Below, one piece after another: positions 1 to 26,419 of a stretch of DNA of 53,111 nt. Source of the DNA: a virus; the IMG/VR virus record IMGVR_UViG_3300025141_014934, positions 1-53,111 of that record, one strand, 5' to 3'. The notes below the pieces were generated by a model. It saw only the letters and a list, made by a program, of their open reading frames with translations, was not told where the DNA came from and did no database searches. Position 1 is the first letter of the stretch. Every line of letters starts with the position of its first letter. A program made the translations under genes and the position numbers.

Positions 1-3000
1 ATCTGTTTCCATGAAGGATATTGATAGGGACCGTTGCGGTGATGCATAAGCCCGTTGAACATCTTTTCTTTGCCTTTATATTTGTTCGACCATCCGTAAA
101 CTAGTCCACCTTGATATACTTGGTCAACAAGACCAGGAGGAATGGAAGCTGACCACTCATAGTCTAACGGATACCCAACAGTGTTGATACTAGAGCTTAC
201 CGGTTCATAAAGGTTGGTGTTCAAACCTACAAAATCATCCGGGATAAACTCAAAATACGCAGTTGAAGTTGGCAGTCCCCATGGAATACCATAGTAGCGT
301 ACGCTATCCCAGTAGTAAAGACCAGATCCTACGTCACTACTACTAAGGAATGTTATATCATCAGATGCTGTTGCGTACCCCAAAGCCTTGGAACTCTGCA
401 TCGATGAGGTGATCCATAGGTACTGTGAGTCAGACTGGGGGATAGCATGTTGAACGAACCAGTTGTCGTAGACTGCACTGCCAGGGAGAGCCTTTGTGAT
501 GCTACTTGCAGTCAAGCTACAAGGACCGATACCGGCTTGGTGTGAGGAGGCTGTTGCGGCGGTCAACCCGAAACTCCCGCTAGCTCCGTTAATTATAGCA
601 GTGGCAGAGTCGCCGGGAGTGTCTCCAAACCTATATACGGCTTTTACTGAACTTGATATTCCATGCGTTGAGTGGAACGAATCGCTGTAGTTCGTATAAG
701 GATCTGTTGGTCCCGGAGTATAAGCTGTATCTCCCACATAGCGATAGAACGGCGCGCTAAAGGCGGTACTAGTGCTATCGACAGAGGGAGTAACATATCC
801 AGTGAAGAAAGATAGCTGTGCAATTTCTCCTCGTAAGAAGTTGGCGTAGGCGAGGGTGGCATGCTGCTCGCCGCCGACGGTCAGTATATCAGTGGTACCC
901 ATAGCCATACCCATACGGATGGAGGCGCCCCACCAGACGCCGTCTAGATAACCATCGCCGACATATTTGCTGGTTCCTGCATTGTAATACGAACCAAAAG
1001 TGACGTGGTGCCACTCTCCATCATCCACGCGATTGGCACTAGTGTTAAAGTTTGCACTCGTTGACAATCCTTCATCGGTATCAATGGTCAAGATTCCACT
1101 CGTAGTTACTGTGAGACGGCAGCGAAGTGTGCCAGCGGTGGCGTTCCAAGAAAAAATGGTTTGACTGTACGCAGCCTGTATAGTCTTGAACCATACACTA
1201 AAGCTGACTGGGTGTGGCTCACTGGCGGTTTTGCCACCAAACCACTGAAGCTCTGCGGCTGTTGGGCCATTGAAATACTTACCTGTGTAAAGGTTTGTTA
1301 CGGGCGCGCCGAACACAGCACAGTGCTTATTCTCTGTGGCGTAGAAGCGGCCGGGGTAAGGGATTGTACTCCCCGTTGGCGCTTCTAGAGAAATACGGCC
1401 GGCCGAGGCGGTATTATACGGCACAGCGTAACTGCTGTTTCCACTGAAATCTCTAAGGGTGCGAGGTGCCTGACCTTCAACAAACTCAGAATCATCACCC
1501 ATTCGGTACCAAGCAACCAAACTACCAGAGGCAGGATGCAGTTGGAGATCTGTCGGTCCTGGGTTGTTGTTGTTCCCTGAGTCATAAAGACGCACGATGT
1601 CGCTGCCGGTTAACTCCGTGTTCCAGACTGCAACGTCGGATATCCACCCATTAAATCCGTTATCGAAGAATTTATTTTGGTTGCCGATCCCTATTTTGTC
1701 AGTGGAAGCAATAGAGGAGGAGAAACTTGTTAAAGCAGCGCTCGTATTTACAACCTTGCCGTTAATATACATGGTACCATAGGTAACGCCGCCGTCGCCG
1801 TTGTAACGACACGTGAGCCCAATGTTGTACCACTCACCCTCTGTAAGTACAGAAGAGTCAAAAGAGTCAGAAGAACCAGCATAGGAATCTGCCCGGACGG
1901 CGCCGGTGCTACGGATCCCCAGAGACATTTTTGCATTGTTACCCTGGCTGCCAAGAGCTACCACCACTCCCGTGCCGCTATCATGAGAGAACCCTACAGG
2001 AAACTTTACCCACGCAAACATTGAAAAAGAAGTATTAGTCAAGTTTAAGGTTGAAGCATCTTCTAGTGAAAGATACAGTTTGCAGTCACTGCTGTCGGTC
2101 TGACACGTGCCCTGAGGGAAATAGATTGAATAGTGATTCTCAAATCTCGCATCTTTCTCGTATCTTCGAGCCGTATTTCTGTTGGTCCCCTGATAGTTGC
2201 CGACTACATAATGCGGAAGATTGTCTAACTGCTGCGAGGAAGTTAGGCTGAACGCCTTTATTCCATACTGACCAGAGTGATCTTTAAGTAGTGAATTGAG
2301 TGGCTGCCTTACGCTTAAGTTTCTCCATGGCATTGCATTATATGGAGAGTACTCCTCGGAAGTGTAATCTCTTGTTCCTCTCGCCATCACTTCACCAGAG
2401 CCTGGGGCGCTGAATCTTTCAGTTATGACGGTTTGGTTTGTCGTCCTCTCCGGTAAGGAGTAGTCGACAACACCAGTTACGTATGAGGACTCGCTATTGG
2501 AAATTGACAGATTTTCAATGAACAAATTGTTGGCTTTTCTGCCGCTTGTTTGAACAACTTGGTAATTCTTTTCGAAGTTGCCGATCTTGGTTATACCGGA
2601 GCTTGTAACCTGTTGGATGTTGGCAATGTTAACGGGCCGCTTCGCGTACGTCTCTCTTGTTCTATTGGCGAATGGAAGATATTTATATGCGTTGTCAGCT
2701 TGAAATGTAGTGGGTGGGGCGGCGCCGCGGGTTGGACCTGAACTTACAGTCCCCAAAGTATTTGAGTTACCTGAAGAATCATATAGAAAGCTTTTTTCAT
2801 CAACGCCAAAGCGCCACCAGGCAGCCACATTATTGGGGAATTCCTCCATAACATTCCATGCCCCGGGTCCACCGAGTTTTGAAGCGCCGTAAAGAGATTC
2901 TACGGCATCAATAGTGCCCGTGCTGTACACTACAATCTCGCCAATATGACCCCTGTAGGGAGTGTTGGACGAGGCAGCCACGGTGTCTGCACCAATAGCG

Positions 3001-6000
3001 ATACTGTTCCCGAGTGTAATATCATTTTGAGATGGGTCAGTAGTAGCGTCATCAACAAGTACCCCATCAACATAAAGATATTCATCTTTTATCGGCTGGA
3101 GAAAGAGAGGTTTGGTAAACTCCCTAATATAATGAATAAAGTGCCACTCTCCGTCATTAATTGCAGTACTGCCTTGAATAGTCGGGGTGCCGCCGACGGC
3201 GCCGGCGCTGATGAAGTTGTTCTCATCGATGTAGATTGCAAAGTGATTGGTAACCCCTTCATATATGCGGAAAAGCATACCCCCATAAGTATCAGCAGAA
3301 AAGTCTGCATCCGTTTTGATCCACATAGTAACGCCATCCTGCTGCAGCGGGTTACCCGTGGTGATCTCTCCGCTTAAATCCAAAGTATCAGAGATAGAAC
3401 TAGACAGCACCCTAATGCCAGAAGAGCCGCCGACCGTGTTGTCGAAAAACGCTGAGGCTTCTAGCGTGCCAGTACGACTAGTAGCGGGCCCGGCAACAAC
3501 TACCGAACTACCCGTTCCTCCCACTTCCGTATCCGTTATTATACGATAACCCTCGGGGCGGCTAAACCGGGTATCGAGTACGTGCTCTGGGGATGAATAG
3601 TTTACGTCTACGTGACGATACTGATAACCTCCGACATACTTCTCAGTGAAGGGACCCTGAAGTGGTGTCTCATAATCAGGACCATATGAATCATTATGAA
3701 GATTAGTTGCCTCAATCCCTTCAAAGCCTCCGATTTCATGGATCGTTTTAACATACCCTGTAGTTACTGAGGAAGAATAAAACGTAAACGGAGCATTCTC
3801 TTTGATAACTTCTGTCGGAGATCCATCACTAGCAGAGCCAGTATGGGTATAGTACGATACTCTCTTTTTGGTAGCCGGGTTGCCTTCCGCATCTATAAAT
3901 GTTGGCTTTAGGACATCATCACAGTCCTCAAGCTGTTCGAGATCGGAACCTGAGATATACGAGTAATCGTGATAAAGAGCCATGGACCCTTCATTTTCAA
4001 CACTATCAAACGTTGACAATAGTAATTTTTCTTTTGCATTCGTTGGGGCGTTGGAACCAGCCCTTATATCCTTGACTTCAACTGCCCTGAATTCATAAAC
4101 CGAATTTAACTTTCTATTGAAAGTTTGCTGAGACGCGTCGAGGATCTCTGTCCTATCTGTATTAACACCTGCATCGCTCGATGAAAGGAGCCCGGCGTTG
4201 CGCTCGGCCTTCTGGCGCCACCAAAAACAGTTCTGGCTTTGTAGATTGCTAACCGGGTGGTGTCCGTGCTTCCAATCATATAAAAGCTCGTTGATGCCGC
4301 GGGCAGGATCTTCGGGATCACTAAATTTACTCTCAAGCGTGGGGAACTTGTTCCAGTACTTATTTCTCTCCAGTGCATGACTTTCTACCACAGTTCTAGT
4401 AGTCCCTGCAAAGTTTGCCGATGCTGGGATCAACTGCAGTAGCATTGTCGTTACTGATTGGTCTAGCCACTTATAATACTCCAGATATTTTTCAAACTCT
4501 ATCGTGTCATTTTCAACGTGGCTAAAGAAAATCTCTCGTAATTTCTCTAGATTCTTATAAGACTGACGGTAGCGGTTGACCGACTCGCCAATCAAGTTGT
4601 TGAAATCCGTTATCGTCGCAAAGTATGAGAGCATTTGGCGCGAGACCGCATCATTCATGCTCTTTTCAATTGAGAACATGTAATTCATCGGGCGCGTGGT
4701 GCGATCAAAGTAGAAATCATCGTTCGATGCAACTTTAATCAAGTCAGAACTATCAACGTTTTCCACAGTCTGTTGTTTCTGCATGAAAGCATAATTCGTC
4801 TCGACCACATCAGTTAAATTGGGCAAGAACATTTCGCCGCGGCCCGTGTGTTGTAAGTACAGCAAGTTTCCAAGCCAACCCGCGCCTTGTGAATCTGTTA
4901 GAGAGCCAGAAGAAACATCGATGACATCGAATCCAGCGTCGTTATATATCGGACCACGTGTTCCGGACGAGGAGGAGATGACCAACTCAAAGTCCCAGTC
5001 CAGCATGCGTGTATTAATACGAGGAATGTAATTTTGAATGCTATCATCGCTCCCAGTACCCTGCATCATGAAAGCTTGTCTATACGGATGGAGCCGACCA
5101 AAGCTGGTTGGGTCCTTTGCGTGGGCAAGGATCTCATCATTGTCGAGCACATCCAACCAGGCTCGGGCAGAGGAGATCTTTACATCCGACTGTTGTAGCA
5201 TCGACCCAGTAAAGTTTTGCCTATTTGCACCAACATAGAACCGTTTATGCGCGCGCATGAAAGCTTTCCCTTCTTCCGACGTCATTGTTCCAGTCAGGTA
5301 AAATTCGTGTTGATTCTCACCAAGTTCTACGTTAACGCCATAAAACTCCACTTTGTAATCATCTTCACAACTACCCGTAACCATACACGATTGTGGATAA
5401 GAAGAGGGAGCTACCTTGACAGCAAAGTTCCATCGCTTCGCTGCATACACTCCAGGAATCGCCGATGATGTTAACTCAGGTACAGGTCCTTCAGTCGAGG
5501 CATCCACTTGGGAGCTTGTCAACATAAACTTGACCTCCCCCATTGATGGCTCGCTCTGGGTGTTTTGCTTTACAGCGAATACCTGGAAGTTGGCGCTGTC
5601 GCTGGACTCCCATTGTGTAGTAACACCGTCAGCGACAGGAGTGTGGACTCCGTATATTGATGCGGTGAAAATGGTTGGTCCAATAAGAACGCCCTTTCTT
5701 GTAACGCTGTCATAACCCTGAGGGAATACGACGTCTGCTTCAAACGTCATCCCAAATCCGTCCTGCAAGTATTCAGAACCACTCAAATACGGGGTTGAGT
5801 TCGTGTTGCTGCTAGCGGTCTGTTGGTAGCACACCGCGTTAGAGTTGTCTGCAGTGTGAAAATTGATATACTTTTTTCTAGATGTCTTGTTTCTGAGATT
5901 TTCAGATATCTCGTATTCTACCCCGTCGGCATATATTTTAAGGTCAATTACTTCTTCGTCAACACCGAAGCACCTAACAAGGTTTCTAAACGCGCGTTCA

Positions 6001-7862
6001 GTACCCTTAGATTTATAAATGTGGATGAGGTTATTGTAAACGTTCTCATAAATTCTGCTCTTAACATTGAAGAGATCATCGGCGAACAGTTTATTATCGC
6101 CACGGGCCAAGAGGTCTTCGATAATCGTCGCTTCTACAAACATTTCCGGGGCGGTTAATCCAAGGGACTCAAGCATCTCTCTCATAAACGGATAGGGCTT
6201 ATCTTTGGGAGACGTGTATGTTTTGTTGTCTTTAAGACTTGATAGCTCCTTGATTTGCAAGTAGACACTGTCAAAGTAAGTGGACATTATCTGAACTAAC
6301 TTCTTAAGGGCACCGTTTTCACCGTCTTCCTCTTGAATCCAAGAAGGGAGAGAACGGTACATACTAGAGATGTTCTCGTAATCGTAGACCGATCCAGAGT
6401 TCATCAAGTTTGTCTTAAGTGTAATAACATCCGGATTGTTCTTTCTAACAATCGGATCCTCAAATTCTTTCATTGATGCGCTAGCTTCGATGATCGCCGA
6501 GCCGGTGTTGCGGGCCCCTGCTGCGTACCCAACAAAGGTTCCGTTTGTAATACGTCCGGAATAATCTAAAACTATTCTATCAGTAGCAACGTCACCAGTG
6601 ATGCCTTCGTTAAACTTGTAATAAACACCAAGCTTGTTTGTTGCATCCTCTTTATTTACACCACCGTCAACCTGATCAAGCCAGTTTAGTCCTATCTCCT
6701 TTGCGTTTCTGACAGTTTTCCAATATCTGAATTCGTCTACTGAACCGGAGAGCTTGTACCAGCCTAAGGAGCCAGTTTCCGTAATGACTCCACTACGATA
6801 ACCACGACAGGTGGCACCTATCGTTGCCTGCAGGCTCCCCGTTATGGCTAGTGGCTCATTTCCACAGGCTCGCTCAACAGTGTTTACCAAAGTCCCATTA
6901 CGATAAGTCTTTACCGTCAGAACCCCCGGATAATTAGCTGTGGTTCCGGCGAAGGAGGTGTCCGTGCGCGATTCTACAGAGACAGCATAGTGATTCCACG
7001 AACCGGTGGTAGCAAAATCAAACCCATCATCTACCGAATATATTGGTCTGACAGGAAATGTCGTGTACTTGGATCCACCTCCGATCGTGCCAGATTGGAA
7101 TGTAAATACTAGTCCTTTATAGGCATCACCGCCGCCGTCGGAGTTGTATAGATATAAGGAAACTCGGCCCGAGGAAGCGCCGGCGCCCTGGTCCCATATG
7201 GGAGGAGCCTCTGGGGAGATTCCATTTGACATATCAAATATCATTTGATATGGGGTGGTTGTAGTGGGGTCAAGCTCGCCCATCTTCAACCAGAACTCTA
7301 TCGTCATGCCACTGCCGGAAACGTCACAATAGAGGTTTGATTCTCGAAGACTTCCAGTGTCCCAAACGTTAGATCCACTATAAGTTGTATAGATTGGCTT
7401 TCCAATCATCCCTGCTGAGGCTGTGTTTGGTCCCCCGTAGAAATGGACATATTCCTTCGTGGCTGGGTTTCCCCATTCACCGCTATCAATTGCGTACCCG
7501 CCGGAGGCAAATGTTACGTAGCCGGTTGAGCGCGGGTAATCGTTGTCATACAAATGAAGCTCTAGAAATGATGAGCTATTTTCCCATTGTAATTTTTCGT
7601 AGCGGGATCCATCGTAAGGATAGAGGGTGGTGATGCGATCAATAGCATCTTCGTAATACTTCTCAGCTAAACCAAACTTTACAAAGTTTGAAGCAGATAC
7701 AAAGTCAATATGTGGTAGAAGTCTTCTCTTTTTATCAACATATTCTGCAACGTACTTGTTGGTAACAGAGTTTGTTTCGTCGGCAATCTCAGAGATGCTC
7801 TTGTTATCAAGAGTCGCCCGGTTGCCGCCCTTTTTAAATAAGTTTTTTAAACTGTCGCTCAT
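1..7862 (-). CDS. Giant LamG-domain tail/adhesin protein, C-terminus outside window
   Basis: An uninterrupted reading frame of 2620 codons runs from an ATG at 7862 to the window edge without a stop. The ATG overlaps the stop of the upstream structural gene (ATGA). Four regions look like LamG/concanavalin-type beta sandwiches: about residues 170-390, 1500-1700, 1900-2120 and 2190-2390. Each has the pattern of a hydrophobic FWLK/WIKT/WVKF/WFKT strand, a GEWH/GSWNH-like strand, an NGT/NGK/VDG turn and a final G-x-(I/V)-DE/SDV strand. Around residues 500-640 an alpha-helical segment ending in YKSKGTERAFRNLVRCFGVD resembles phage tail protein I (P2 gpI) family members, which join baseplate and fibre. 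Position after gp25 and gp6 fits a tail or baseplate-attached fibre that binds host glycans. The protein is rich in Ser, Thr, Gly and Asn. Binding specificity is unknown; LamG assignments rest on pattern only. Confidence 0.85.
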   Translation of the reverse strand, partial: MSDSLKNLFKKGGNRATLDNKSISEIADETNSVTNKYVAEYVDKKRRLLPHIDFVSASNFVKFGLAEKYYEDAIDRITTLYPYDGSRYEKLQWENSSSFLELHLYDNDYPRSTGYVTFASGGYAIDSGEWGNPATKEYVHFYGGPNTASAGMIGKPIYTTYSGSNVWDTGSLRESNLYCDVSGSGMTIEFWLKMGELDPTTTTPYQMIFDMSNGISPEAPPIWDQGAGASSGRVSLYLYNSDGGGDAYKGLVFTFQSGTIGGGSKYTTFPVRPIYSVDDGFDFATTGSWNHYAVSVESRTDTSFAGTTANYPGVLTVKTYRNGTLVNTVERACGNEPLAITGSLQATIGATCRGYRSGVITETGSLGWYKLSGSVDEFRYWKTVRNAKEIGLNWLDQVDGGVNKEDATNKLGVYYKFNEGITGDVATDRIVLDYSGRITNGTFVGYAAGARNTGSAIIEASASMKEFEDPIVRKNNPDVITLKTNLMNSGSVYDYENISSMYRSLPSWIQEEDGENGALKKLVQIMSTYFDSVYLQIKELSSLKDNKTYTSPKDKPYPFMREMLESLGLTAPEMFVEATIIEDLLARGDNKLFADDLFNVKSRIYENVYNNLIHIYKSKGTERAFRNLVRCFGVDEEVIDLKIYADGVEYEISENLRNKTSRKKYINFHTADNSNAVCYQQTASSNTNSTPYLSGSEYLQDGFGMTFEADVVFPQGYDSVTRKGVLIGPTIFTASIYGVHTPVADGVTTQWESSDSANFQVFAVKQNTQSEPSMGEVKFMLTSSQVDASTEGPVPELTSSAIPGVYAAKRWNFAVKVAPSSYPQSCMVTGSCEDDYKVEFYGVNVELGENQHEFYLTGTMTSEEGKAFMRAHKRFYVGANRQNFTGSMLQQSDVKISSARAWLDVLDNDEILAHAKDPTSFGRLHPYRQAFMMQGTGSDDSIQNYIPRINTRMLDWDFELVISSSSGTRGPIYNDAGFDVIDVSSGSLTDSQGAGWLGNLLYLQHTGRGEMFLPNLTDVVETNYAFMQKQQTVENVDSSDLIKVASNDDFYFDRTTRPMNYMFSIEKSMNDAVSRQMLSYFATITDFNNLIGESVNRYRQSYKNLEKLREIFFSHVENDTIEFEKYLEYYKWLDQSVTTMLLQLIPASANFAGTTRTVVESHALERNKYWNKFPTLESKFSDPEDPARGINELLYDWKHGHHPVSNLQSQNCFWWRQKAERNAGLLSSSDAGVNTDRTEILDASQQTFNRKLNSVYEFRAVEVKDIRAGSNAPTNAKEKLLLSTFDSVENEGSMALYHDYSYISGSDLEQLEDCDDVLKPTFIDAEGNPATKKRVSYYTHTGSASDGSPTEVIKENAPFTFYSSSVTTGYVKTIHEIGGFEGIEATNLHNDSYGPDYETPLQGPFTEKYVGGYQYRHVDVNYSSPEHVLDTRFSRPEGYRIITDTEVGGTGSSVVVAGPATSRTGTLEASAFFDNTVGGSSGIRVLSSSISDTLDLSGEITTGNPLQQDGVTMWIKTDADFSADTYGGMLFRIYEGVTNHFAIYIDENNFISAGAVGGTPTIQGSTAINDGEWHFIHYIREFTKPLFLQPIKDEYLYVDGVLVDDATTDPSQNDITLGNSIAIGADTVAASSNTPYRGHIGEIVVYSTGTIDAVESLYGASKLGGPGAWNVMEEFPNNVAAWWRFGVDEKSFLYDSSGNSNTLGTVSSGPTRGAAPPTTFQADNAYKYLPFANRTRETYAKRPVNIANIQQVTSSGITKIGNFEKNYQVVQTSGRKANNLFIENLSISNSESSYVTGVVDYSLPERTTNQTVITERFSAPGSGEVMARGTRDYTSEEYSPYNAMPWRNLSVRQPLNSLLKDHSGQYGIKAFSLTSSQQLDNLPHYVVGNYQGTNRNTARRYEKDARFENHYSIYFPQGTCQTDSSDCKLYLSLEDASTLNLTNTSFSMFAWVKFPVGFSHDSGTGVVVALGSQGNNAKMSLGIRSTGAVRADSYAGSSDSFDSSVLTEGEWYNIGLTCRYNGDGGVTYGTMYINGKVVNTSAALTSFSSSIASTDKIGIGNQNKFFDNGFNGWISDVAVWNTELTGSDIVRLYDSGNNNNPGPTDLQLHPASGSLVAWYRMGDDSEFVEGQAPRTLRDFSGNSSYAVPYNTASAGRISLEAPTGSTIPYPGRFYATENKHCAVFGAPVTNLYTGKYFNGPTAAELQWFGGKTASEPHPVSFSVWFKTIQAAYSQTIFSWNATAGTLRCRLTVTTSGILTIDTDEGLSTSANFNTSANRVDDGEWHHVTFGSYYNAGTSKYVGDGYLDGVWWGASIRMGMAMGTTDILTVGGEQHATLAYANFLRGEIAQLSFFTGYVTPSVDSTSTAFSAPFYRYVGDTAYTPGPTDPYTNYSDSFHSTHGISSSVKAVYRFGDTPGDSATAIINGASGSFGLTAATASSHQAGIGPCSLTASSITKALPGSAVYDNWFVQHAIPQSDSQYLWITSSMQSSKALGYATASDDITFLSSSDVGSGLYYWDSVRYYGIPWGLPTSTAYFEFIPDDFVGLNTNLYEPVSSSINTVGYPLDYEWSASIPPGLVDQVYQGGLVYGWSNKYKGKEKMFNGLMHHRNGPYQYPSWKQ

Positions 7863-9358
7863 TTTTCGACTCTAAACTTAAACTCTTTCTCTCCCTCAAC
7901 GTATTTGTTACTCAAGTAATAAATAAATCTTAGAGTGTAAGAGTATCCCGGCTCCAAAGCATCGACATCTATATCAAAATAGCTACCAGTAGTGTCTAGG
8001 GATAACTTTGTACAATTATGATCACTACTGCCGGTGCCATAAGCAAAAATAGGATACTGATCGTAGGTTCTGTACAGACTATAATAAACAGTCTCGACAG
8101 GATAGTTTTCAATTTGAGCTATAGCCTTCGTATAGATATTCGGGTTCCAATTTTTTTGTCTTGTATAGAGTCTAAATCTTGTAGTCTTCTCATCGACATG
8201 GTAAACGGCCTTAAGATTTGTTACTTTCTCAACTAACTCATAATTCAAGTTATAGTTTGAAGAGCCAAAGGTTTTAGGAGTAATGGAAGCAGTATGAAAC
8301 TCAACCCCCGCATCATCATGCCAGATATCAAATAATCTAGTTAATGGAGTTGCGGCAGCCGTAACGGCAAAGGTAGCAGAATAGATGCCTGTCGATACAT
8401 AACCACCGGTTATATTAAGATCATTGGCTGCAGCAACGTCGCCGCCAATACTTAATTGAAGTTTGGAAGCTGACGGCTCACTGTTATCGTCTGAGCCAGA
8501 GTAGACGCTCACATAGATGGCTCCCTGATCGGTCCCGGGAATATCCGCTAACTGCCCTCTAATCACGTTATAGAGATAGAGCGTGTTCAAGTTGTCGGCG
8601 GCCGGGGCTATTGAGCTACTGTAATAGAAGTTCCCTCTATCATCTGTTGTAGAGGAGTCCCATCGTGCCTCGATCAGTGGGCGCTTAAAGAAATATTGCG
8701 AAGAGCGAGCGAAGAATTTCTTGGTGTACTGGGTGGTACCGCCAGTTTCTATGCTTGAAGTGAGGCGTACAACAATTCCGTAGTTGTCCACTCCGGAATC
8801 TCCACTGCCTTTAATCCAGTCCTCGACGAGCGGCGTGATATCTAACTCTATGTCCTCTGTACCATCTTCCATCGCGATATCGAAGACATTCTCATTCTTG
8901 TTTTGATCCAAGAAGTCGCCGCCGGCCGTGGTCCAAGTACTCCCAGAGCCGGCATTAACCCAGTTGGAGCCAGTTTGATCATACGTCAGATCACTATAAT
9001 TCTCCATATCCAAGCCATAACCCTCCTCCCATGATTGGGATACGGGCATGACGGATAAAGTGATGTCTCGTGGAATCGTGGAGGCGTGAGGAGCATTAAA
9101 CATCCGGAGATAGAAAGAGACACTCCCGCTGGCGGGAACGTCGCCGTTTGTTCGGTCAGTAGAAATATCCGAGACCGGGAAGTTGATCAGTACCCGAGAT
9201 AGCTCTTGAGAAGTTGAGGATTCCTGTCCAAAAATGTGAAACACCTCTAAAATATCGGCGCGACCCATGTTGGAGCCGGTACCTCGGGTCACCAAATTTG
9301 TCTCAAAGGCGTTTGTCAGAGTGTTATCTGCATCCGCCGTATATCGCTTGATAGCCAC
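7859..9358 (-). CDS. Virion structural protein, baseplate/tail module (499 aa)
   Basis: The product is unnamed but looks structural: beta-rich, high in Ser, Thr, Gly and Asn, with no signal peptide or membrane segment. Residues 1-180 (LINFPVSDI, SFYLRMFNA, DITPLVEDWI) resemble the DNRLRE-like beta-sandwich layout seen in surface and structural proteins, in which a multi-strand fold ends in a DIT..V..W helix. The C-terminal part contains a further beta domain (residues about 390-499). It starts directly after the gp6-like gene (stop 9359) and overlaps the giant LamG gene by four bases, so it is probably translated together with both. A wedge-to-fibre connector is a reasonable guess from position. 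Fold assignment is tentative. Confidence 0.75.
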   Translation of the reverse strand: MAIKRYTADADNTLTNAFETNLVTRGTGSNMGRADILEVFHIFGQESSTSQELSRVLINFPVSDISTDRTNGDVPASGSVSFYLRMFNAPHASTIPRDITLSVMPVSQSWEEGYGLDMENYSDLTYDQTGSNWVNAGSGSTWTTAGGDFLDQNKNENVFDIAMEDGTEDIELDITPLVEDWIKGSGDSGVDNYGIVVRLTSSIETGGTTQYTKKFFARSSQYFFKRPLIEARWDSSTTDDRGNFYYSSSIAPAADNLNTLYLYNVIRGQLADIPGTDQGAIYVSVYSGSDDNSEPSASKLQLSIGGDVAAANDLNITGGYVSTGIYSATFAVTAAATPLTRLFDIWHDDAGVEFHTASITPKTFGSSNYNLNYELVEKVTNLKAVYHVDEKTTRFRLYTRQKNWNPNIYTKAIAQIENYPVETVYYSLYRTYDQYPIFAYGTGSSDHNCTKLSLDTTGSYFDIDVDALEPGYSYTLRFIYYLSNKYVEGEKEFKFRVEK

Positions 9359-11155
9359 TTACCTAAATGTTCCCTTAATGTCAACTTTGGGGTATTTAAT
9401 TTCCCATATAAAATCGATTGGCATCTCTATAATTCTTCCGTCAATTGTCATATGATCATTTATAATAAAAGAGGTTGCGGAATAATTCCCCCCAGTTAAG
9501 ACCTTGATAGTAACATCAGTCACGTCAACCACCCCTTCAGAATCGTTTACCACGTTGTAAATGTCAGAAATGAAAAAGGACTCTCCCATATTCGGAACAG
9601 TGTCAAAGTAATCCTCTAAAGCTGCCTGAACATCACTCATAACATCTACCCTGTTAGCCCCGTAATCAAGGACTGCACTGAAATCTATTCCAAAGTTTAT
9701 TACTCTCGCATCCAATATATCAACGGTATCATTAATCATTTTAACGCTGGTTAACCACTTCTTTATATTTTGTTTCAGCGTAGCATTCGAAGATATCAGG
9801 CGGCCAGCCCTATTCTCAGAAATAACATATAAATTCAGATTTCGCTTAAAGGAATCTTTGTCCTGCACTATGTTGCATCTCTTTACTGCGCCAAATTCGG
9901 CTGGCATGTTGTATACCATCGTTATGTAGTCTTGTTTTGTGACCGCGCGGTTTTGTGTTGCGAAAGCAGCGTACGCCTTTTTCTTGATTTCCTCTGCGGT
10001 GGGGTAAGAAACACTCCCCACGATAGAATTTTCATTACTAACTTCTAGAGATGATATAACTTGATTTGCAGTTGCAAGATTCAAAGAAGAAAGATTATCA
10101 AATCTCGCAATTGGTCCCACAACATTGTTAAGGGCGCCTGGAGCAGCATTCATGTTTGCTTCACTATTCGTCCTGTATTTAATTGTCAACGTTGTGTCAG
10201 ATGGTCCGACTCCAAGCTTATCTGTTTGAAGAAGACGACTGGGATCGACTGTCTTATCTGTAAAGTAATCGCGACCAATGACCTTTAAAACTACTTGACT
10301 GGGATCGGCGATGGTCCTAGTGTCAAGCTCAGAGTCTGAACCGAAACCAAACTGGAGTACGATCTGAGTGCGATCCTTTTCTACAATGAACCGGCGTGGA
10401 ACTGGTACGGCAGTAAGGACAGAGTTAACATCGTCTTTATCAGAATTCCGATTTCTTGTGGGCTTATATACAACATCTTGCGATAGGTAATCTACTTCGA
10501 AGTATTCATTGCCCTCAGAATCTTTTACTGACAAGACTTCAGTTATATTCTCGCCACTCAACTTGATCTTTCTAAACTTTTCAAAGTTTCCAACGATGAC
10601 ATCCTCGCTCAAGATATCTCCAGATATTACTTGCCCATAAGCTTTGACGGCAAAAAAGCTCGTATTACCTGTTGTCGGATCCTGGCGGGCGGAAACAGGG
10701 TCAATGCCCTCTAGACTCCCGAAGTTCACGTCTTCATTTAAAATGTACCCTCTCCCGTCAGCCGTGGACACTGTTGTGCCGCGCTCAAGGACGGGCATAT
10801 ATTGAGTATCAGGAGCTAATGTGACAGGATCAGCAGGGATAAGAAGATAAAAAGCCGCAGTTCCAAAAGCACTAGGGGTTAGATCCAGCTTGTATCCCAA
10901 CTGTCTCGATAGTTTGACAACATTATCATATTCGATCGCAGTAGGCAAAAAAGACTCGTTCGCCTGATAATCAAGATAGAACGAAAGCATATCGCCCACA
11001 TAAGCTACTGTATCAAGCATCAAGGAGCCAAAACCAGCATCACCAAAATCTCTGAATGTGTCAGGATAATAACGTTTTGCATAATCTACTAAATCCGTTT
11101 TAATGGATTCAAAATCCCTGCTCGTATATTTAACTGCTACTTTTTTCTTTGGCAT
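9359..11155 (-). CDS. gp6: Baseplate wedge protein, T4 gp6 / baseplate J-like
   Basis: This 598-residue protein has the N-terminal signature of the gp6/baseplate_J family: YTSRDFESIKTDLVDYAK, followed by a FGDAGFGSLMLDTVAYVGDML segment and NESFLPTA with a VVKLSRQLGYKLD helix. T4-like gp6 is a dimer that, with gp7, gp10, gp53 and gp25, forms the wedges around the central hub and carries the conformational change during contraction. Length agrees with marine T4-like gp6 (about 600 residues). A middle domain around residues 390-430 (KKKAYAAFATQNRAVTKQDY) is the conserved region preceding the C-terminal dimerisation part. It lies 18 bases after gp25, as in many T4-like genomes. Confidence 0.93.
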   Translation of the reverse strand: MPKKKVAVKYTSRDFESIKTDLVDYAKRYYPDTFRDFGDAGFGSLMLDTVAYVGDMLSFYLDYQANESFLPTAIEYDNVVKLSRQLGYKLDLTPSAFGTAAFYLLIPADPVTLAPDTQYMPVLERGTTVSTADGRGYILNEDVNFGSLEGIDPVSARQDPTTGNTSFFAVKAYGQVISGDILSEDVIVGNFEKFRKIKLSGENITEVLSVKDSEGNEYFEVDYLSQDVVYKPTRNRNSDKDDVNSVLTAVPVPRRFIVEKDRTQIVLQFGFGSDSELDTRTIADPSQVVLKVIGRDYFTDKTVDPSRLLQTDKLGVGPSDTTLTIKYRTNSEANMNAAPGALNNVVGPIARFDNLSSLNLATANQVISSLEVSNENSIVGSVSYPTAEEIKKKAYAAFATQNRAVTKQDYITMVYNMPAEFGAVKRCNIVQDKDSFKRNLNLYVISENRAGRLISSNATLKQNIKKWLTSVKMINDTVDILDARVINFGIDFSAVLDYGANRVDVMSDVQAALEDYFDTVPNMGESFFISDIYNVVNDSEGVVDVTDVTIKVLTGGNYSATSFIINDHMTIDGRIIEMPIDFIWEIKYPKVDIKGTFR

Positions 11156-11173: not shown

Positions 11174-11569
11174 TTACATTTCTATGATAGTACCGTCTCT
11201 CAAGGAAGTACTAACATCTATACTATCTGCGACACCGAGTGATGGTACTCGATATTGAATTGAAACATGTACTGCATTAGATTCATCTATATCCGAAACG
11301 TCAATATACTGAAGCTCCACATAAGGCATGTATTTGCCCACTTGTTGCGAGATCGCAATCTTCAAGTTTTCGTGAACCTCAAAAACATTCTGAGAGAATA
11401 GGTAGTTTCGTAAGCCCACGCCGAAGACCGGATCCATCATCCGTTCACCAGGACTTGTCAGCACAATATTTTTTAAATTCTGTGTTATTAGGTCTGCGTA
11501 TGTCTGAATTAAAGCATATCCGTCTTGAGGAGTTCGCTCTATCGGCAATCGTGGGGTAAGTCCTGGCAT
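11174..11569 (-). CDS. gp25: Baseplate wedge subunit, gp25-like (GPW/gp25 family)
   Basis: The 131-residue product contains the hallmark of the GPW/gp25 family, GERMMDPVFGVGLRNYLF at about residues 41-58, which corresponds to the conserved G-E-R-x3-P-x-F-G-x-G-L-x3-L-F core. gp25-like proteins sit in the wedge next to the sheath and nucleate sheath polymerisation. The ATG has a good ribosome binding site (AGGA five bases upstream). It is the first gene after a 66-base gap, one of the longer gaps in the structural module, and is followed closely by gp6. Length is typical of the family. Confidence 0.94.
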   Translation of the reverse strand: MPGLTPRLPIERTPQDGYALIQTYADLITQNLKNIVLTSPGERMMDPVFGVGLRNYLFSQNVFEVHENLKIAISQQVGKYMPYVELQYIDVSDIDESNAVHVSIQYRVPSLGVADSIDVSTSLRDGTIIEM

Positions 11570-11635: not shown

Positions 11636-14600
11636 TCAGCTATCGTCCGGTTCAGCTGGAGGGCTGGCACTGAAAGCCCAGGCCGAGAGTGGGGATTGTT
11701 CGGATTTGTTGTCGCTGGCGTCCAGGGCGATGCGGGTAGCGGCCCTCTCAGCGTCTTGACGCGTCTCCTTAGCCGTATCCAGTGCCTCTTTCGTGGTGTA
11801 AGTGATCACAGGATCGTTGGGCCCAAGTCCCGGCTTAAACTCTTCTGGAATCTCCAAGAGTTGATTTCCGTCGGGCCCTTTAATAATCGTGTACTGGGGC
11901 ACGTTTAGGCACTCTGGTGAAAGTCCGCCGGTCTTGCATGCTGTGGGAGAGTCAGATGATGGAAGTTGCGGGAACGGAGGTAACGTTAGGCAGTCCCACT
12001 CCTTCTTAATTGTTCTGCCGAAGCCACCAAACTCCCCCTCAGTGGGTATTAATGGGCAAAGCACTAACTTTAACAGCCCAAACGGATCTATGGCAGATCC
12101 TAAGATGTTAACGGCCGCCATGAGGATCGATGCAAAGAAGTCAAACGTGATCTGTATAATATCGATGCCCATATCTTCCATAATTGAACCCCAATCAAGT
12201 CCCATTAGCGATGCCATGATGTCTGCGTCTTCGTATTCTTTGCACTTATTAATAGGATCATCGTTAATCAGCACGTAGAACAGATTCCTTAATGCCCTCT
12301 TAACTGCTGTATAAGAGTTGTTGGTTTCTCGATAGTTTTGAGAAACGTTAAGGTTAACATTTACAAAGGCATCTGCGAACAATCTATCTGTTGGGAAGAT
12401 ATAATCAAATAGAAACTTAAACTCTGGCTCATTTTCCAGTTCGCTTCTTAAATCTACAATTCGTGTATTTTGAGCGGCGAGATGGTTATTGGAGCGGGCT
12501 GCCACGCGGGACCAAGAGTCACCGCTAGCGATCAGGTCGAACTCTCTTTCCATGAGCGGCAAAGAAATTATTTGACGAGTCATCGGTGGTACAGTATGGG
12601 TGACCTGCAGCAGGCGGCCGGCTTTCTCATTTCGAGAAAATTCTGGGTTCATCACCGAAACGAGGGTTTCCGGATCTGCAAAAATGCTGTGACCGTCAAC
12701 ACCAAGGATATTATCTGGATCATCTACTGGCGGTAGGGCGGGGTCGCCGGGAAATTGTGAATAAGGAAGTACATATACAAGCCTCACTCCAAGTGATACA
12801 CTTTCAAAAAAGTCTGACGGCTTGTTTGTTAAAAGAAGATCGCTTATTCCCTCTTGTTCTCTAGCATCGTCCCAAAATGCACTCCAATCCTCAATGTTTA
12901 CAACATTAACTAAATCTGGTTTGGAAAAGAAGTCTTGAATCCTGTGGTAGTAGGGATGGCCCTGGAGCGGGTGTTGTAACCACGCTTCCTCTATCATAGC
13001 GGCTCGTCGTTTAGTACCTGTTGCCGGCGGTACTCGTACGATACTTAACAAATTGGTTATCGCATTGTTTTGTGGCATTTGATCTTCGGGTTTGTCAATT
13101 ACCCGTATATATTTTTCAAAGTAAAACTTTCCGCCGCTACTGCCCTCATATTTTTCCCCTGAAGGATTGGTATAAAATGCATAATTTGAAGCACAATCTA
13201 GAGTGTCCGGATCTAACAAAAAGAAATCTAGAGGTTTCTTCTTCTTGTCGCGTCGGACGCGTTCCCACGCACGTTGCTTCTCTGGCGTCAATAAGTTTAG
13301 ACCCTCCATTTCTTTAAGGTGATCCTCAATAATGTATTCGAATTCCTCATTCAAGGAAGCAATCTGCTCCTTTATGAAGAACACCAACATATCGTCTTGT
13401 GAATTCATCTCAATGGGGCGGCCGGTGATGGGGTCGCGACTCACAAGTTCATCGTTTCTTATTTTCCTCTCCCTCATAATACTGCCGGCAATTTCCATAA
13501 AGTCACAATAAAATCCCGCATCTTGGCTAAGATCTGCCTTGAATTTTTGTGCGATATGAAGAGGAACCAAATTAGAGCGACAAATGTCAAGAAGACTATA
13601 CTGTACTGAGAATGGATATATTTTCATGAAGAATTGTAGTGTATATGTCCTCATGTAGAGGTATATGACCCCCAGGAGTGCGGCTTTGGCTAATTGTGGT
13701 ATGTTCTTATCCTCTAGCGGTGAGCCGGCAGGATCACATACAGGCGTTTCCTGGAAAGCATCCTTTACCAGCTTCTTTAGGGCACGCATGCTAGTGAGAT
13801 CCCCGTGCGGGACCGAGGGTGGGATTTCCATAAAATCAATTGGCTTTCCCGGTGCAACAGGGGCTCCGTCAAGAGGAGGGCGCTCTATGAAGCCATTTGC
13901 TCTCCATGTTCTATCCTGACGTGAAGGAGTAAACTCTATATTTGTCAGATCATCAGCCGTCTGAATCGGGCCATTTGGTGCAGTATCGATAACTTCGGCC
14001 GTATAGAGCAAGCACTGCATCATGTAAGCTTTTTTAAATTTAAATTTATCGACATCATCAGCGAGTGATACATCTGCGCGAAGCTGAAAATATCTATCAA
14101 TTTTCTTTAAAAACATCTCGCTCTTTTCTTCGCCAGGCGGCTTTAACTCTGGGTCAGTTCCATTTTCAACAATATCATAATAATTAACGTCATACTGTTC
14201 CACGTTAGTAAGGGAGGGGTCTTCGGCAGCAGCCGGCTGTGTTACTTCGGTACTATTGTTATAAAATGCCCGGAACTCATCCCGATCATTTGCACCTGTA
14301 TCGATCTTATCTGTAAGCACCTGGCTAAGATTCATCTTAAATTCCAACTTAGAGTTGGGCTCTTTATTAAATTTAACTTCGCTGATGTTGTTGTACGCAA
14401 ATTGTTTAAACTGCTTTGATAGTTTGTCAACAACTTCTGTGGCAGGGTATAATAATGTCTGTGCCCTCTCAGGAATTCTTGTTATTTGACGTGAGTTCCA
14501 TTGGTTATGGCGGTGGTTCGGAATTTGCCCATCCAGAGTCCCGATAGTGGCAGGGGCAACAACAGCTGCGTTCTCTATTTGATGCATCACCTCAGAAAGA

Positions 14601-17600
14601 GGGGGTGTTGGTCCCGGAAGGCTGTTTTCGTATATTATTACAAAATCGTCAAATGTATTGCCTGAATATGGGGCGCCGAGCATGTCGCCTTGTAAAAACA
14701 AAACATCAGGGAGACTGGGCAGATCGGTCTCTTCTGGTTCGCCAAAATAATGAAGATTTAAAACCTGGCGGCGCACTGAACCGCCGCTGCCGCGTCCGCC
14801 GGCGAGGGAGAATTCGTCTTTGACAAAATCTGCGTGTGCCAACGGAACTATACCAGGGGTTATAAAGCGTACAAATCCGGGGGAGGCGCTCATTGCTGTC
14901 AGCTTTTCAGATATCGCTATCTTTTTAGCTGCAAATAGGGTGTTGGCGTCCTCGTCGCCGTCGCTGGCGCGAGAGTAGGCTTGTTGAATTTCTAGGGCCC
15001 TGGCGTAGTCTGCAGCGGTAAGTGGTGCTTCTCTAGTCGTCGCCTCGTCAGACAACTTGATCGTGTTTTTGTAAGACGAGGGTATATTGGAAGCAAAGCG
15101 CTGTTTAATATTGGCATAAAACACATTGATCGCAGTATTGTTCGAGGCTTCGACAACTGGGATAGCCTTCCAGTTTACAACGGGAGGCTTTGGCGGGGTT
15201 GCCGACGCAGGATCCGCAGGGGGCGGATTGCACGGGGGCTCTATTAAATTATCCATGATCTGGCTTTGATCACCAGAGGCTAGTTTCAAATACTGTTGGA
15301 GTTGTGCGTCTAAATCCTGCTTAAGATCCTGATAATCCTTTTGGTTTCTCTGCCCTAGATTATCGGAAGGGGGAGGGATATCGCACGTGTCATCTATTAT
15401 GTCCTCGTTGAAGGATAACAACGAAGCACAGAACCCTGGGCTCACCAGCGATCCTAAGCGCAAGAAAACCTGTCGCGTAGTGTCCGCATCCAAGAAAACG
15501 TCGCGTAGCTCTGGGTGGCGTCTAGCGGACTTAAGTGTGCTTTTGAGCGTAGCGGACGATGCAACGCCATTAAGTAAGTTGCATAGAGTACTGGGTAACA
15601 TTTTAGAGGTTATCTCGTCCAGGAACAACTGTAGCTGTGCTGCCGTGTTATCGCTTGATACGGATAACTCGAACGGTGCCTTGAATTTGGGGAGAGCACC
15701 TTTTCCTGAGTTACCGTCAGGTCCGAACAGTCCGTCGAGGAGACCCTGTAGATCTGCCGCAGAGATTGGTACCTTGGGTGTATCACCTACTTGCTTTCCC
15801 GCCTTGACCGCATTTCGCAAATCCTGACATATCCTAAGGATTGTTTTGAGAAGTGCGCGGACTAAACCAGCGGTTGCCTTTTCGATCGCCTCTTGGAGAG
15901 CCTCCTTCATCGCTTCACCAATCGCATCAAGCAGTGCGCCGGTGGCGATCGGTTTTATGGTGGGAAGACCAATCTTAGGAGGATTTGGCATTTTAAAGCT
16001 GAAACTAAGATCATTGAAGCCAATATCAGTTACGATGTCCATCAACTGGCTTAAGTAGCTTGCTAAGTTTTCACAAATTGACTCTAATTCGAATCTTTCA
16101 CCTAGTTCCTCGATGAATAACGCTGCGTCTTCGGAAAAATCTACAAATGACGCCCGCTTCGTCGTCTGGGCATCTAGCTCGGCTAGCCCTTGTTTGGCGC
16201 CGGCGGCGCTTTCAAAGGCTTTTTCCAAATCCTCAGCGCTCATGAACATATAAGAGCTATCTATTTTGGCCAAAGAACCGTAATAGGTTTCACGACGACG
16301 TTGACGAACTGGCTCTAGAGCGGCTTCGGCTTGTGCGTACGTACTTGCAGTCGATTTAGCAAGGGCGTCTGCGCCCCAGCCAGCGATCTCAAAATAAGGA
16401 AGAAGGACGTTCTTTCTAAACTCTTCTACACCAAGATAATTAAAGGCGGCTTCAAGGCGAGCTTCACAACTCCAGTCTATCCCTATTAGTTCAATTATGC
16501 ATTGCATAATCTGCTTAGCAACTTCAGTTACACCATACTTGGCAAGGAAGTGTTCATATGCATCGCTAATGCTTTGTATTTTTGACGTAGTCTGTTCTAG
16601 GAATACAAAAGTAGGACTCCCACTCCAGTGAGCCCTCTTTTCAGTGGCTTCTGCTACCATTTCCTGGATCTTGACGTCGCTCAGATAGTTGTTTTCTTCG
16701 TTAAGTTGTTGGAGTGTTTTCACGCTGTCATGAAGTTTACCCTTCTCCGTAGAAGTAGGAGTAAGAGTCGGGGGACTAATGACAAAATCTCTTAGGAAAT
16801 CTCCTATACTTTTCTTCGCCAGGTCCGCCTCAACAATTTGCTCCATGTTAATGAGATACAGTATGTTTTGTTTAGATACTGCGAGATCATTTCGGAAGGC
16901 GCCAAACCCAATTCTGAGCGGCCTTTTTTGCCCGTTGACAATTGCGTAAATGCCCTTTAAAGAATAGGCAGAGTCGCAAATGAATACAAGTTCTCCCTTC
17001 TTTTCAGCAAGTTCACGTGGCTTTACCTCATAACCATGAGAAGAGTTTGTTTCTAAATATTCGGCGGCGCTGCCCTCAAAGTATCTTGAGGGTGCAACAA
17101 GTTGTGTAAAACTATCAAATTGACTTAATTGAGGGCCGGAGGGTGATCCATAGATAGCGAAATTCTCGTCGCTGATGATCGAGTTCCGCTTCTCTTCCTC
17201 CAGTTTGTCTTGGAAGCTTTCCATTGCTAAGGTGAACTTTTCAAGACTCTTTTCGAAACTGCCGTTGAACCTAAGGTGGTGTTCGTAATAACCTCCGTAG
17301 TATGAGCCCTCACCAAAAGCTATCTCATACTTGGACATTTGGTTAGTGTTGCGCGGGAGCACATCAAAGTAACTTCTGTGTATGGTTGCCGTAAGAAAAA
17401 GATTTCCCCCTTTTTCTTGATGGTAGTTGGTCACGAAGGTATGATTGGCTATGAGTTCCAAAACCTTCGGATTCGACCATCCTCGATCGGTGGGTCCACC
17501 CATCTTATCAAGATTTTTTAATATATGACTTACGGCTGATTTTTTGACTTTCTCAAGAAATTTCTCTTGTCCCTCGCCAGATACTGACAACCAGTCTCGT

Positions 17601-18967
17601 GAAGAGTCTCCCAAATATCTTCCTAGAGGTGTCTGCGCTGCAGGGGTGGGTCCAGCAAGACTGTTGGTAATATTTTCTTTAATCTCTGATTCTTTAGTGC
17701 CAAGTAAACTTTCAAAGTCTTCTGCAACGATGGGGGATGTAAGAGCCAGAAAGAACAGATCTGGTACCTCGCCCGTGTAAAGTTTTATCCATTTAGAATC
17801 ATCACCAAGGAGGTTTTCGGCGCGGTCTGCTGTACTCTCGGGGACTAAATCCGTATATGGGCGGGTAACCACTCCATCACATTCTATCGTAATGTTGATC
17901 GTGTTAAAGAGTTCTTCGCGCCAGGGCTCCTCGTGGCTTTTTTCATACCACTTTGTCCCGTCAAAAAGTGGAAACGGCAGCGGTGTACTATTGGTTATTC
18001 CGTTGAAGTGCGTCCACTTACCTTCTTCTATATTATCAATAAAGCCAATATTGTATTCCAATACTTGCTGAAATGCTCCACCAGGAATCAAATATTGTGG
18101 ATCTATTTTTTGTCTCACATCCTTGGTGGCATCGTTGGCGGCACTATTAAACCCCTGTAAGCCCCGGCTTGTTAGATCTCCGCCTTTTTGCCATTGTTCT
18201 ACAATTTGTGCTTTGTAAGAGCTTCGCCCAAGCAAGTATCTTTTCTCAATTAAAGCCTTTGGAAGTCCAGAGTCTTCATCGATCTTCTCTTTTGCATATT
18301 CTTCTATTGCCCCATTCTCTTCTTCAAATTCAATATTGGCAGCATTCAGTAATGAGGCACGGCCGTAAACGTAAGCAATTTGTGCCTCTGAGCCGGGAGG
18401 GGCTTCTATCATTGATGCTGGCAGTGGAGAGTTTGGGCGCCCTAGCGGAGCCTTGTAGTGTGCTGGGTCATTGAATGAATTTTGAAATGTTTTTAAAGGC
18501 GCGCCTAGCTCGATTGCCGTACGAAGCTTATCGATTGATCCCGGAGGGTACCCTAAGATCTCTCCGAGATACACATCTAGATACCAATTACGGAATTGTT
18601 CAGATGCCACAATATCTGCACCATCAGGTACTGACGATACGGCTAGCTTATACGAAGACTCCATTAGGTCTACTGTCGCGTTTTCTGCAGCAGCACCATA
18701 GGCGTCCACACGAAGCTGGGGGCTTAGCTGCTGTCCGAAAGATGCCTTATAATCCTCAAAAATGTTCGTGGTGGTGTCACTCCAGAGGTCCTCATTTCCA
18801 AGAGCAACATCGGAAATGTCGGCGCCCATGTCCAGCGTACGCTCCACGCTGGGGGCGTTGTCCCCATAATACCGCCAGCCATAACCATTTTCAACAGCCA
18901 AGCGTAGCCAGTTAATGAGTTTGGATTTAAGTGCCTCAGGTTTATGTTCGCTTACTCTTAAACTCAT
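11636..18967 (-). CDS. Giant 2443-residue baseplate-associated virion protein candidate
   Basis: I do not recognise a named family. The 2443-residue protein lies between the spike-like gene and gp25, inside a baseplate module, so a virion role is inferred from position. It is mostly soluble and acidic. Visible features are helix-rich segments (for example the amphipathic stretch near residues 1000-1060 with repeated EAL/EAI/KAL heptads), a proline-rich linker around residues 1230-1270 (PPCNPPPADPASATPPKPP), and a hydrophobic block near residues 2300-2345 (DFFASILMAAVNILG) that could insert in or touch a membrane. Several Cys-containing patches (ICQDLR, LCNLLNG, FCASLL, DTCDIPPP) are notable for a cytoplasmic virion protein. 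A tape-measure protein is an alternative, but those usually lack so many proline linkers and sit elsewhere in T4-like genomes. Confidence 0.7.
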   Translation of the reverse strand: MSLRVSEHKPEALKSKLINWLRLAVENGYGWRYYGDNAPSVERTLDMGADISDVALGNEDLWSDTTTNIFEDYKASFGQQLSPQLRVDAYGAAAENATVDLMESSYKLAVSSVPDGADIVASEQFRNWYLDVYLGEILGYPPGSIDKLRTAIELGAPLKTFQNSFNDPAHYKAPLGRPNSPLPASMIEAPPGSEAQIAYVYGRASLLNAANIEFEEENGAIEEYAKEKIDEDSGLPKALIEKRYLLGRSSYKAQIVEQWQKGGDLTSRGLQGFNSAANDATKDVRQKIDPQYLIPGGAFQQVLEYNIGFIDNIEEGKWTHFNGITNSTPLPFPLFDGTKWYEKSHEEPWREELFNTINITIECDGVVTRPYTDLVPESTADRAENLLGDDSKWIKLYTGEVPDLFFLALTSPIVAEDFESLLGTKESEIKENITNSLAGPTPAAQTPLGRYLGDSSRDWLSVSGEGQEKFLEKVKKSAVSHILKNLDKMGGPTDRGWSNPKVLELIANHTFVTNYHQEKGGNLFLTATIHRSYFDVLPRNTNQMSKYEIAFGEGSYYGGYYEHHLRFNGSFEKSLEKFTLAMESFQDKLEEEKRNSIISDENFAIYGSPSGPQLSQFDSFTQLVAPSRYFEGSAAEYLETNSSHGYEVKPRELAEKKGELVFICDSAYSLKGIYAIVNGQKRPLRIGFGAFRNDLAVSKQNILYLINMEQIVEADLAKKSIGDFLRDFVISPPTLTPTSTEKGKLHDSVKTLQQLNEENNYLSDVKIQEMVAEATEKRAHWSGSPTFVFLEQTTSKIQSISDAYEHFLAKYGVTEVAKQIMQCIIELIGIDWSCEARLEAAFNYLGVEEFRKNVLLPYFEIAGWGADALAKSTASTYAQAEAALEPVRQRRRETYYGSLAKIDSSYMFMSAEDLEKAFESAAGAKQGLAELDAQTTKRASFVDFSEDAALFIEELGERFELESICENLASYLSQLMDIVTDIGFNDLSFSFKMPNPPKIGLPTIKPIATGALLDAIGEAMKEALQEAIEKATAGLVRALLKTILRICQDLRNAVKAGKQVGDTPKVPISAADLQGLLDGLFGPDGNSGKGALPKFKAPFELSVSSDNTAAQLQLFLDEITSKMLPSTLCNLLNGVASSATLKSTLKSARRHPELRDVFLDADTTRQVFLRLGSLVSPGFCASLLSFNEDIIDDTCDIPPPSDNLGQRNQKDYQDLKQDLDAQLQQYLKLASGDQSQIMDNLIEPPCNPPPADPASATPPKPPVVNWKAIPVVEASNNTAINVFYANIKQRFASNIPSSYKNTIKLSDEATTREAPLTAADYARALEIQQAYSRASDGDEDANTLFAAKKIAISEKLTAMSASPGFVRFITPGIVPLAHADFVKDEFSLAGGRGSGGSVRRQVLNLHYFGEPEETDLPSLPDVLFLQGDMLGAPYSGNTFDDFVIIYENSLPGPTPPLSEVMHQIENAAVVAPATIGTLDGQIPNHRHNQWNSRQITRIPERAQTLLYPATEVVDKLSKQFKQFAYNNISEVKFNKEPNSKLEFKMNLSQVLTDKIDTGANDRDEFRAFYNNSTEVTQPAAAEDPSLTNVEQYDVNYYDIVENGTDPELKPPGEEKSEMFLKKIDRYFQLRADVSLADDVDKFKFKKAYMMQCLLYTAEVIDTAPNGPIQTADDLTNIEFTPSRQDRTWRANGFIERPPLDGAPVAPGKPIDFMEIPPSVPHGDLTSMRALKKLVKDAFQETPVCDPAGSPLEDKNIPQLAKAALLGVIYLYMRTYTLQFFMKIYPFSVQYSLLDICRSNLVPLHIAQKFKADLSQDAGFYCDFMEIAGSIMRERKIRNDELVSRDPITGRPIEMNSQDDMLVFFIKEQIASLNEEFEYIIEDHLKEMEGLNLLTPEKQRAWERVRRDKKKKPLDFFLLDPDTLDCASNYAFYTNPSGEKYEGSSGGKFYFEKYIRVIDKPEDQMPQNNAITNLLSIVRVPPATGTKRRAAMIEEAWLQHPLQGHPYYHRIQDFFSKPDLVNVVNIEDWSAFWDDAREQEGISDLLLTNKPSDFFESVSLGVRLVYVLPYSQFPGDPALPPVDDPDNILGVDGHSIFADPETLVSVMNPEFSRNEKAGRLLQVTHTVPPMTRQIISLPLMEREFDLIASGDSWSRVAARSNNHLAAQNTRIVDLRSELENEPEFKFLFDYIFPTDRLFADAFVNVNLNVSQNYRETNNSYTAVKRALRNLFYVLINDDPINKCKEYEDADIMASLMGLDWGSIMEDMGIDIIQITFDFFASILMAAVNILGSAIDPFGLLKLVLCPLIPTEGEFGGFGRTIKKEWDCLTLPPFPQLPSSDSPTACKTGGLSPECLNVPQYTIIKGPDGNQLLEIPEEFKPGLGPNDPVITYTTKEALDTAKETRQDAERAATRIALDASDNKSEQSPLSAWAFSASPPAEPDDS

Positions 18968-24548: not shown

Positions 24549-24979
24549 TTTAACAACCCCACATAATCACTGCAAACACCAGCCAAGCCTTTAAGTGCGG
24601 TGGCTTGTGTCTCTTCTGCGGAATGACATACAATAACTGATCTCTTACCTACTGGCTTTTCAGGGTAGGTCCAAATATAGCCTTTGCTCGTTAAGGTAAA
24701 GTCATCGGTCTGGTGCCAGAAACAATGCACATCATTTTCTACCATTCTTTCCAAGACTTCCCGTGATTTTGCGTGGCACCAAAGTCCAGGGGTCTTTAAG
24801 AATTCTATATCCACTTCGTGCATGGATTCATCATGCCCCAGATAAAACTTATCATCAATATACCATACGTCTATCTCGCTATCATAGCCACCCTTTAGTG
24901 CTTCCTTGATATATGCCGGGTTGTTCTCTCGTTCGGGATTTCGCCCGTGTGTATTACCACGATGTGCGATTAAGATCAC
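24545..24979 (-). CDS. GDPD/PI-PLC-like phosphodiesterase, short
   Basis: At 144 residues this is much shorter than usual GDPDs (about 240 and more), yet it begins with LIAHRGN and has SEIDVW plus YLGHDE, which match the HRG...E-x-D...H core that binds the metal in glycerophosphodiester phosphodiesterases. It likely acts on a phosphodiester within a glycan or nucleotide-sugar precursor. The stop overlaps the rmlB start (ATGA). Comparable short GDPD-like genes occur in capsule clusters beside sugar nucleotidyltransferases. The substrate is unknown. Confidence 0.7.
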   Translation of the reverse strand: MILIAHRGNTHGRNPERENNPAYIKEALKGGYDSEIDVWYIDDKFYLGHDESMHEVDIEFLKTPGLWCHAKSREVLERMVENDVHCFWHQTDDFTLTSKGYIWTYPEKPVGKRSVIVCHSAEETQATALKGLAGVCSDYVGLLK

Positions 24980-26303: not shown

Positions 26304-26419
26304 CAGATACCTCGTTTTTCATAATCCATACCGATCTCCTTCAGGGAAATATGAATTGAGCTACCCCCCGTCTTAGGGACGTGTATAAATACAAATTTGT
26401 CTTTGAGTGAAACAAACAT
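26300..26419 (-). pseudogene. Sulfotransferase N-terminal remnant (39 codons)
   Basis: A 39-residue frame from an ATG at 26419 reads KFVFIHVPKTGGSSIHISLK before a stop. This is the 5'-phosphosulfate-binding motif (FxHxPKxGGSS) that begins Sulfotransfer_2-type enzymes, which are 200 residues or more. It is preceded by AAGG and its stop overlaps the TTG of the HAD gene. The remainder of the enzyme is missing, so it looks like a deletion remnant, perhaps retained because it couples translation of the next gene. Confidence 0.65.

Follow-up and report, generated by a model that had tools for sequence, protein, structure and literature searches.

The window analyzed here, a fragment of 53,111 bases from a virus record in IMG/VR, carries a giant open reading frame (ORF) that leaves the contig at its low-coordinate end without a stop codon. 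An earlier note had described positions 1 to 7862 as a single reading frame of at least 2,620 codons and had given no strand; the ORF lies on the minus strand, and its ATG overlaps with the TGA of the preceding gene (AATGA). The single frame is confirmed both by its length of 2,620 codons (the chance of an equally long open frame at the same composition is ∼10^-62) and by 18 homologous loci, which were retrieved in a first scan with the giant protein itself at 32 to 39% identity, mostly near full length. The features of the locus, in the direction of transcription, are as follows:

11174..11569, minus: gp25-like wedge subunit
9359..11155, minus: gp6/Baseplate_J-like wedge subunit
7859..9358, minus: conserved neighbor of 499 amino acids (aa), homologous to gp159 of phage immuto and to a protein of phage Mel-JY01
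3..7862, minus: giant ORF, ATG at 7862, 2,620 codons seen, C terminus absent
6468..7529, minus: LamG1, pentraxin/LNS-like jelly-roll, residues ∼112 to 465, in essentially all orthologs
5898..6467, minus: conserved helical KGT-motif segment, gpI-like, residues 466 to 655, the best-conserved part of the core
5112..5897, minus: beta-strand-rich domain, residues 656 to 917, possible diverged jelly-roll (weak)
4263..5111, minus: remaining conserved core, residues 918 to 1200, homologous to the Mel-JY01 protein
2733..3530, minus: 266-aa insert, residues 1445 to 1710, with LamG2 (1508 to 1650), site 1360
2172..2732, minus: conserved scaffold between the inserts, residues 1711 to 1897
603..2171, minus: 523-aa insert, residues 1898 to 2420, with LamG3 (1942 to 2089) and LamG4 (2215 to 2360), site 1541
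3..602, minus: conserved scaffold after the inserts (YDNWFVQH ... GPYQYPSWKQ), cut by the contig end

The gene order in the window is thus gp25, gp6, a gene of ∼500 aa, and the giant gene. Relatives keep the last three, and the order matches that of the cultured phages immuto and Mel-JY01; the extra ∼500-aa gene between gp6 and the giant gene, whose product matched no known family, is a difference from T4. Downstream of the giant gene, relatives carry a gene of ∼300 to 370 aa, commonly followed by one of 1,070 to 1,350 aa. Since the giant gene is located directly downstream from the gp25-like and gp6-like wedge genes, attachment of its product to the baseplate is likely, in agreement with the baseplate-anchored reading of the earlier note.

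Other genes of the window were also observed. A 2,443-aa ORF just upstream of gp25 (11636-18967) is in the tape-measure position; neither Pfam nor PHROGs matched it significantly. A 567-aa protein with a Peptidase_M15/endolysin-like part (19933-21636) is encoded between the baseplate genes and a late sigma factor-like gene. Positions 23595-42373 hold genes for sugar-nucleotide and glycan functions (GDP-mannose dehydratase/epimerase, nucleotidyltransferases, sugar isomerase, PfkB kinase, FkbM methyltransferase, UDP-GlcNAc 2-epimerase, and glycosyltransferases).

Relatives and predicted full length

A scan with a profile of the conserved core found at least 497 relatives. Complete orthologs are mostly 2,600 to 4,300 aa long, with conserved flanking genes. 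In a few cases, the ortholog is split into two adjacent genes with varying break points (1,229 + 2,242 aa in L093; 1,808 + 1,511 aa in L094, the second halves of both being joined to the giant by adjacency and not by individual homology). The window ends at a PSWK motif, from which the extent past the contig end was measured: because orthologs run 1,180 to 1,760 aa beyond this motif, the full-length window protein is probably 3,800 to 4,400 aa, or else its gene may be split like those of L093 and L094.

The relatives of the window virus are, by their structural genes, T4-superfamily contractile phages. Gp23 was detected in G003 to G006, immuto, and Mel-JY01 (E values of 1e-58 to 1e-85), as was a tail sheath gene, which scored over the cut-off in five of these six; neither gene was seen in the window itself. 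The only cultured phages found to share the core were immuto (vB_FspM_immuto), which infects Flavobacterium, and Mel-JY01, which infects Microcystis. These distant relatives, together with metagenome-assembled genome (MAG) contigs labeled Maricaulis, Flavobacteriales, Poseidoniales, and WOR-3, give hints alone, and therefore we claim no host.

Three further observations were made among the relatives. A core homologue with 42% identity (L202, CP070664.1 583579-597013) lies in a 2.8-Mb record labeled as a WOR-3 bacterial chromosome and may be a provirus or a mis-assembly. At L017 (2639-18107), the ortholog is broken after ∼315 aa of core and resumes past a pair of unrelated ORFs of 642 and 544 aa, neither with a Pfam match; this is a gene-sized insertion within the LamG1 region. 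Proteins distinct from the giant and bearing three to four LamG domains (L101, G003:63500-67500; L102, G004:100400-103500) are encoded near the gp23 capsid gene and possibly decorate the head.

LamG domains and the conserved core

Four LamG-like domains had been proposed for the giant protein, and their number holds up, although their boundaries differ from those first given. The Pfam profile Laminin_G_3 (PF13385; curated cut-off of 27.6 bits) matched the whole protein in four stretches, with an E value of 4.1e-34 and 118.3 bits. As separate pieces, copies 2 to 4 scored above the cut-off (E values of 1.2e-10, 9.5e-11, and 2.1e-8; 42.2, 42.5, and 34.9 bits, respectively) and copy 1 under it (1.4e-4; 22.4 bits). 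A LamG model seeded with the three copies of the window alone gave no further matches; the working model, reseeded with 18 phage domains, places the copies at residues 182 to 390, 1508 to 1650, 1942 to 2089, and 2215 to 2360.

Structure prediction with AlphaFold2 for residues 1 to 1200 (82 sequences, mean pLDDT of 78), combined with fold comparison by VIA-align, identified LamG1 as a pentraxin/LNS jelly-roll. A LamG fold had been expected at residues 170 to 390 and was found there, but the domain is wider, since the two methods set it at ∼112 to 465. Its best fold match was PAPP-A (Z 20.1, rmsd of 3.0 over 222 residues), with Z scores of 17 to pentraxins and 13 to 14 to neurexin LNS; most pentraxin, PAPP-A, and LNS comparisons fell at Z 13 to 20, with rmsd values of ∼2.6 to 3.4 Å over ∼175 to 222 residues. 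The matches to botulinum toxin and PAPP-A were taken as the common jelly-roll fold and nothing more. This fold-level evidence covers LamG1, and LamG2 to LamG4 rest on profile matches. Residues 656 to 917 are a weak fifth candidate (hhalign, 13.5%, with a score exceeding those of 40 shuffles).

The helical segment at residues 466 to 655 is also present in immuto and Mel-JY01, and in 92% of ortholog pairs LamG1 is less conserved than this segment. The core is homologous to immuto gp161 (1,265 aa; hhalign, 97.8%) and Mel-JY01 WWT39511 (1,336 aa; 98.4%), which are likewise encoded after gp6-like and ∼370- to 390-aa genes plus an intervening small or ∼413-aa gene. Unlike the giant protein, both have another N terminus, no LamG domain that we could find, and no multi-thousand-residue C-terminal scaffold.

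The earlier note had also seen a segment like P2 gpI. The Tail_P2_I profile (PF09684) gave no match at E values of ≤10 in the window, in four related virus records, or in the immuto record. Compared with an alignment of 13 diverse gpI proteins (the gpI relatives among viral contigs were nearly identical and so unhelpful), the core segment reached 6.5% in hhalign with a score of 25.5, which none of 200 column shuffles attained (highest, 22.0), and the two cultured relatives reached 16.7%; the likeness is restricted to the KGT motif, ∼31 to 55 columns. A direct profile comparison of T4 gp7 with the core yielded nothing, and the core profile matched no sequence in the PDB. The isolated segment gave a poor model (pTM of 0.30) and a PDB fold search at noise level, which is not counterevidence. 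What stands of the proposal is the KGT motif and the fitting gene order, which point weakly to a kinship with P2 gpI.

TssF and TssG, which are similar to gp6/gp7 and gpJ/gpI, assemble into 2:1 heterotrimers (PMC6300606). Like P2 gpI, T4 gp7, and TssG, the single-copy partners of gpJ, gp6, and TssF in the wedge heterotrimer, the giant is found near gp25 and gp6, and it has the short KGT motif in common with P2 gpI; in contrast to gpI (176 aa) and gp7 (1,032 aa), it is far larger, carries LamG insertions, and shows no family-level match.

Insertion sites along the scaffold

The most interesting part of the protein, absent from the first reading, is its set of fixed insertion sites. Among 55 complete orthologs of more than 2,500 aa, a single LamG domain is present in 41, two are present in 10, three in 3, and five in 1; the window protein has four already within its truncated part. 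When aligned to a scaffold model built from single-LamG orthologs, nearly all extra LamG domains fall entirely inside insertions at a few recurring scaffold positions (1146, 1343, 1360, ∼1446, 1541, 1620, 1644, 1921, and 2142, as placed by hmmalign, which can favor one same insertion state). In insert-free phages the flanks are unbroken, as in L010, where GINELLYNWEFGFHPL runs directly into NSEDNKCLWW; in L016, closely similar flanks are 268 residues apart.

The closest relative of an extra LamG domain is often at another site: the domain at site 1146 of L022 is closest to that at site 1541 of L016, and the domain at site 1541 of L073 is nearest to that at site 1191 of L006. On a quick core tree, from which the LamG columns were left out, 15 changes account for 18 carriers of extra LamG domains, and 6 changes account for the 6 carriers at site 1541, counts that do not separate gain from loss. 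The same sites are also occupied by other domains, namely, MAM (L081; E value of 1.8e-7) and a Reelin subrepeat (L064; 2e-7). Because the extra LamG domains appear on the tree nearly one carrier at a time, often have their nearest relatives at other sites, and can be substituted by MAM or Reelin-type domains, we interpret them, on this comparative evidence, as independently acquired cassettes at separate scaffold sites and not as repeated copies. The suggestion that domain repetition reflects recognition of repetitive surface sugars is therefore not upheld, since the extra domains are independent cassettes and copies 2 to 4 of the window share no mutual BLAST similarity at an E value of 1e-3.

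Proposed role and alternatives

With moderate confidence, we propose that the giant protein is a wedge-anchored scaffold showing exchangeable, probably carbohydrate-binding, domains in an uncultured T4-superfamily contractile phage. The N-terminal core of ∼1,200 aa, comprising the invariant LamG and the gpI/gp7-like helical segment, would anchor the protein beside the gp6-like wedge subunit in the baseplate of the virion. LamG or other beta-sandwich domains would occupy discrete insertion sites in the long C-terminal scaffold and bind a polysaccharide or glycoprotein of the host surface during adsorption, and swaps of cassettes between sites and phages may retune specificity and, with it, host range. 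Counting against this proposal are the missing Tail_P2_I match, the empty comparison with T4 gp7, and the cultured relatives, in which neither a LamG domain nor the long C terminus was found.

LamG folds serve in protein-protein contacts as well, and the main rival explanation, which we regard as unlikely, is that the LamG cassettes are structural, providing protein contacts or spacers in a baseplate skirt, and that downstream genes bind the receptor. LamG1 behaves in part as would be expected of a structural domain, being moderately conserved (39% mean pairwise identity) and the only LamG in the majority of orthologs, and large genes do follow the giant gene, with annotated fiber/spike genes downstream in the cultured immuto. 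However, the extra LamG domains vary from site to site and from phage to phage, with other binding-type folds taking their place, which is unusual for structural contacts. It is quite improbable that the giant is a tail-fiber-like or side-fiber protein that merely lies within the baseplate operon and is no wedge subunit: the baseplate operon of T4 does extend to gp8-gp10 and connector genes, similarity to gpI is weak, and a ∼500-aa gene stands between gp6 and the giant gene, but residues 466 to 655 are the most conserved part and keep the same position in two cultured phages, as for a core structural protein, and neither Pfam nor PHROGs gives a fiber family in the giant. That the LamG-like domains belong to a polysaccharide depolymerase attacking the host capsule is very improbable, since, despite the glucanases of the concanavalin A-like superfamily and a weak overlap, under the cut-off, with the N-terminal lectin domain of a sialidase, Pfam finds neither a glycoside hydrolase nor a lyase catalytic domain in the part seen, and the fold neighbors of LamG1 are mostly noncatalytic binding folds (pentraxin, neurexin LNS, and perlecan/laminin LG modules).

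The wedge-anchored display scaffold that we favor has partial counterparts. LamG3 domains on tail/virion proteins of jumbo phages have been described, with carbohydrate binding proposed (PMC7824862); these proteins have LamG folds (Laminin_G_3, PF13385) as in the giant, where, by contrast, the folds are inserted at sites that recur along a conserved scaffold from the baseplate operon and turn over between orthologs. The gp7-like wedge part of AlgoCIS is an evolutionary hotspot for re-engineering, fiber attachment, and varied appendages (PMC8894135). Its Alg12, compared here by description only, is a gp6-gp7 fusion that binds separate fibers, whereas the giant has its putative binding domains inside the polypeptide itself. 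A literature search found no papers on this giant baseplate-operon protein family.

More tentatively, the family may represent a natural display scaffold with about nine fixed sites, through which a widespread clade of uncultured phages could alter host recognition by swapping domains (LamG, MAM, and similar) in a wedge-anchored polypeptide and not by exchanging separate tail fibers. Receptor recognition of uncultured phages is difficult to predict. If confirmed, the giant family would show where the variable binding modules sit within one protein, and with their location known, cassette content could be used to study host range. The family would then also provide natural, evolution-tested sites for domain insertion in a virion protein.
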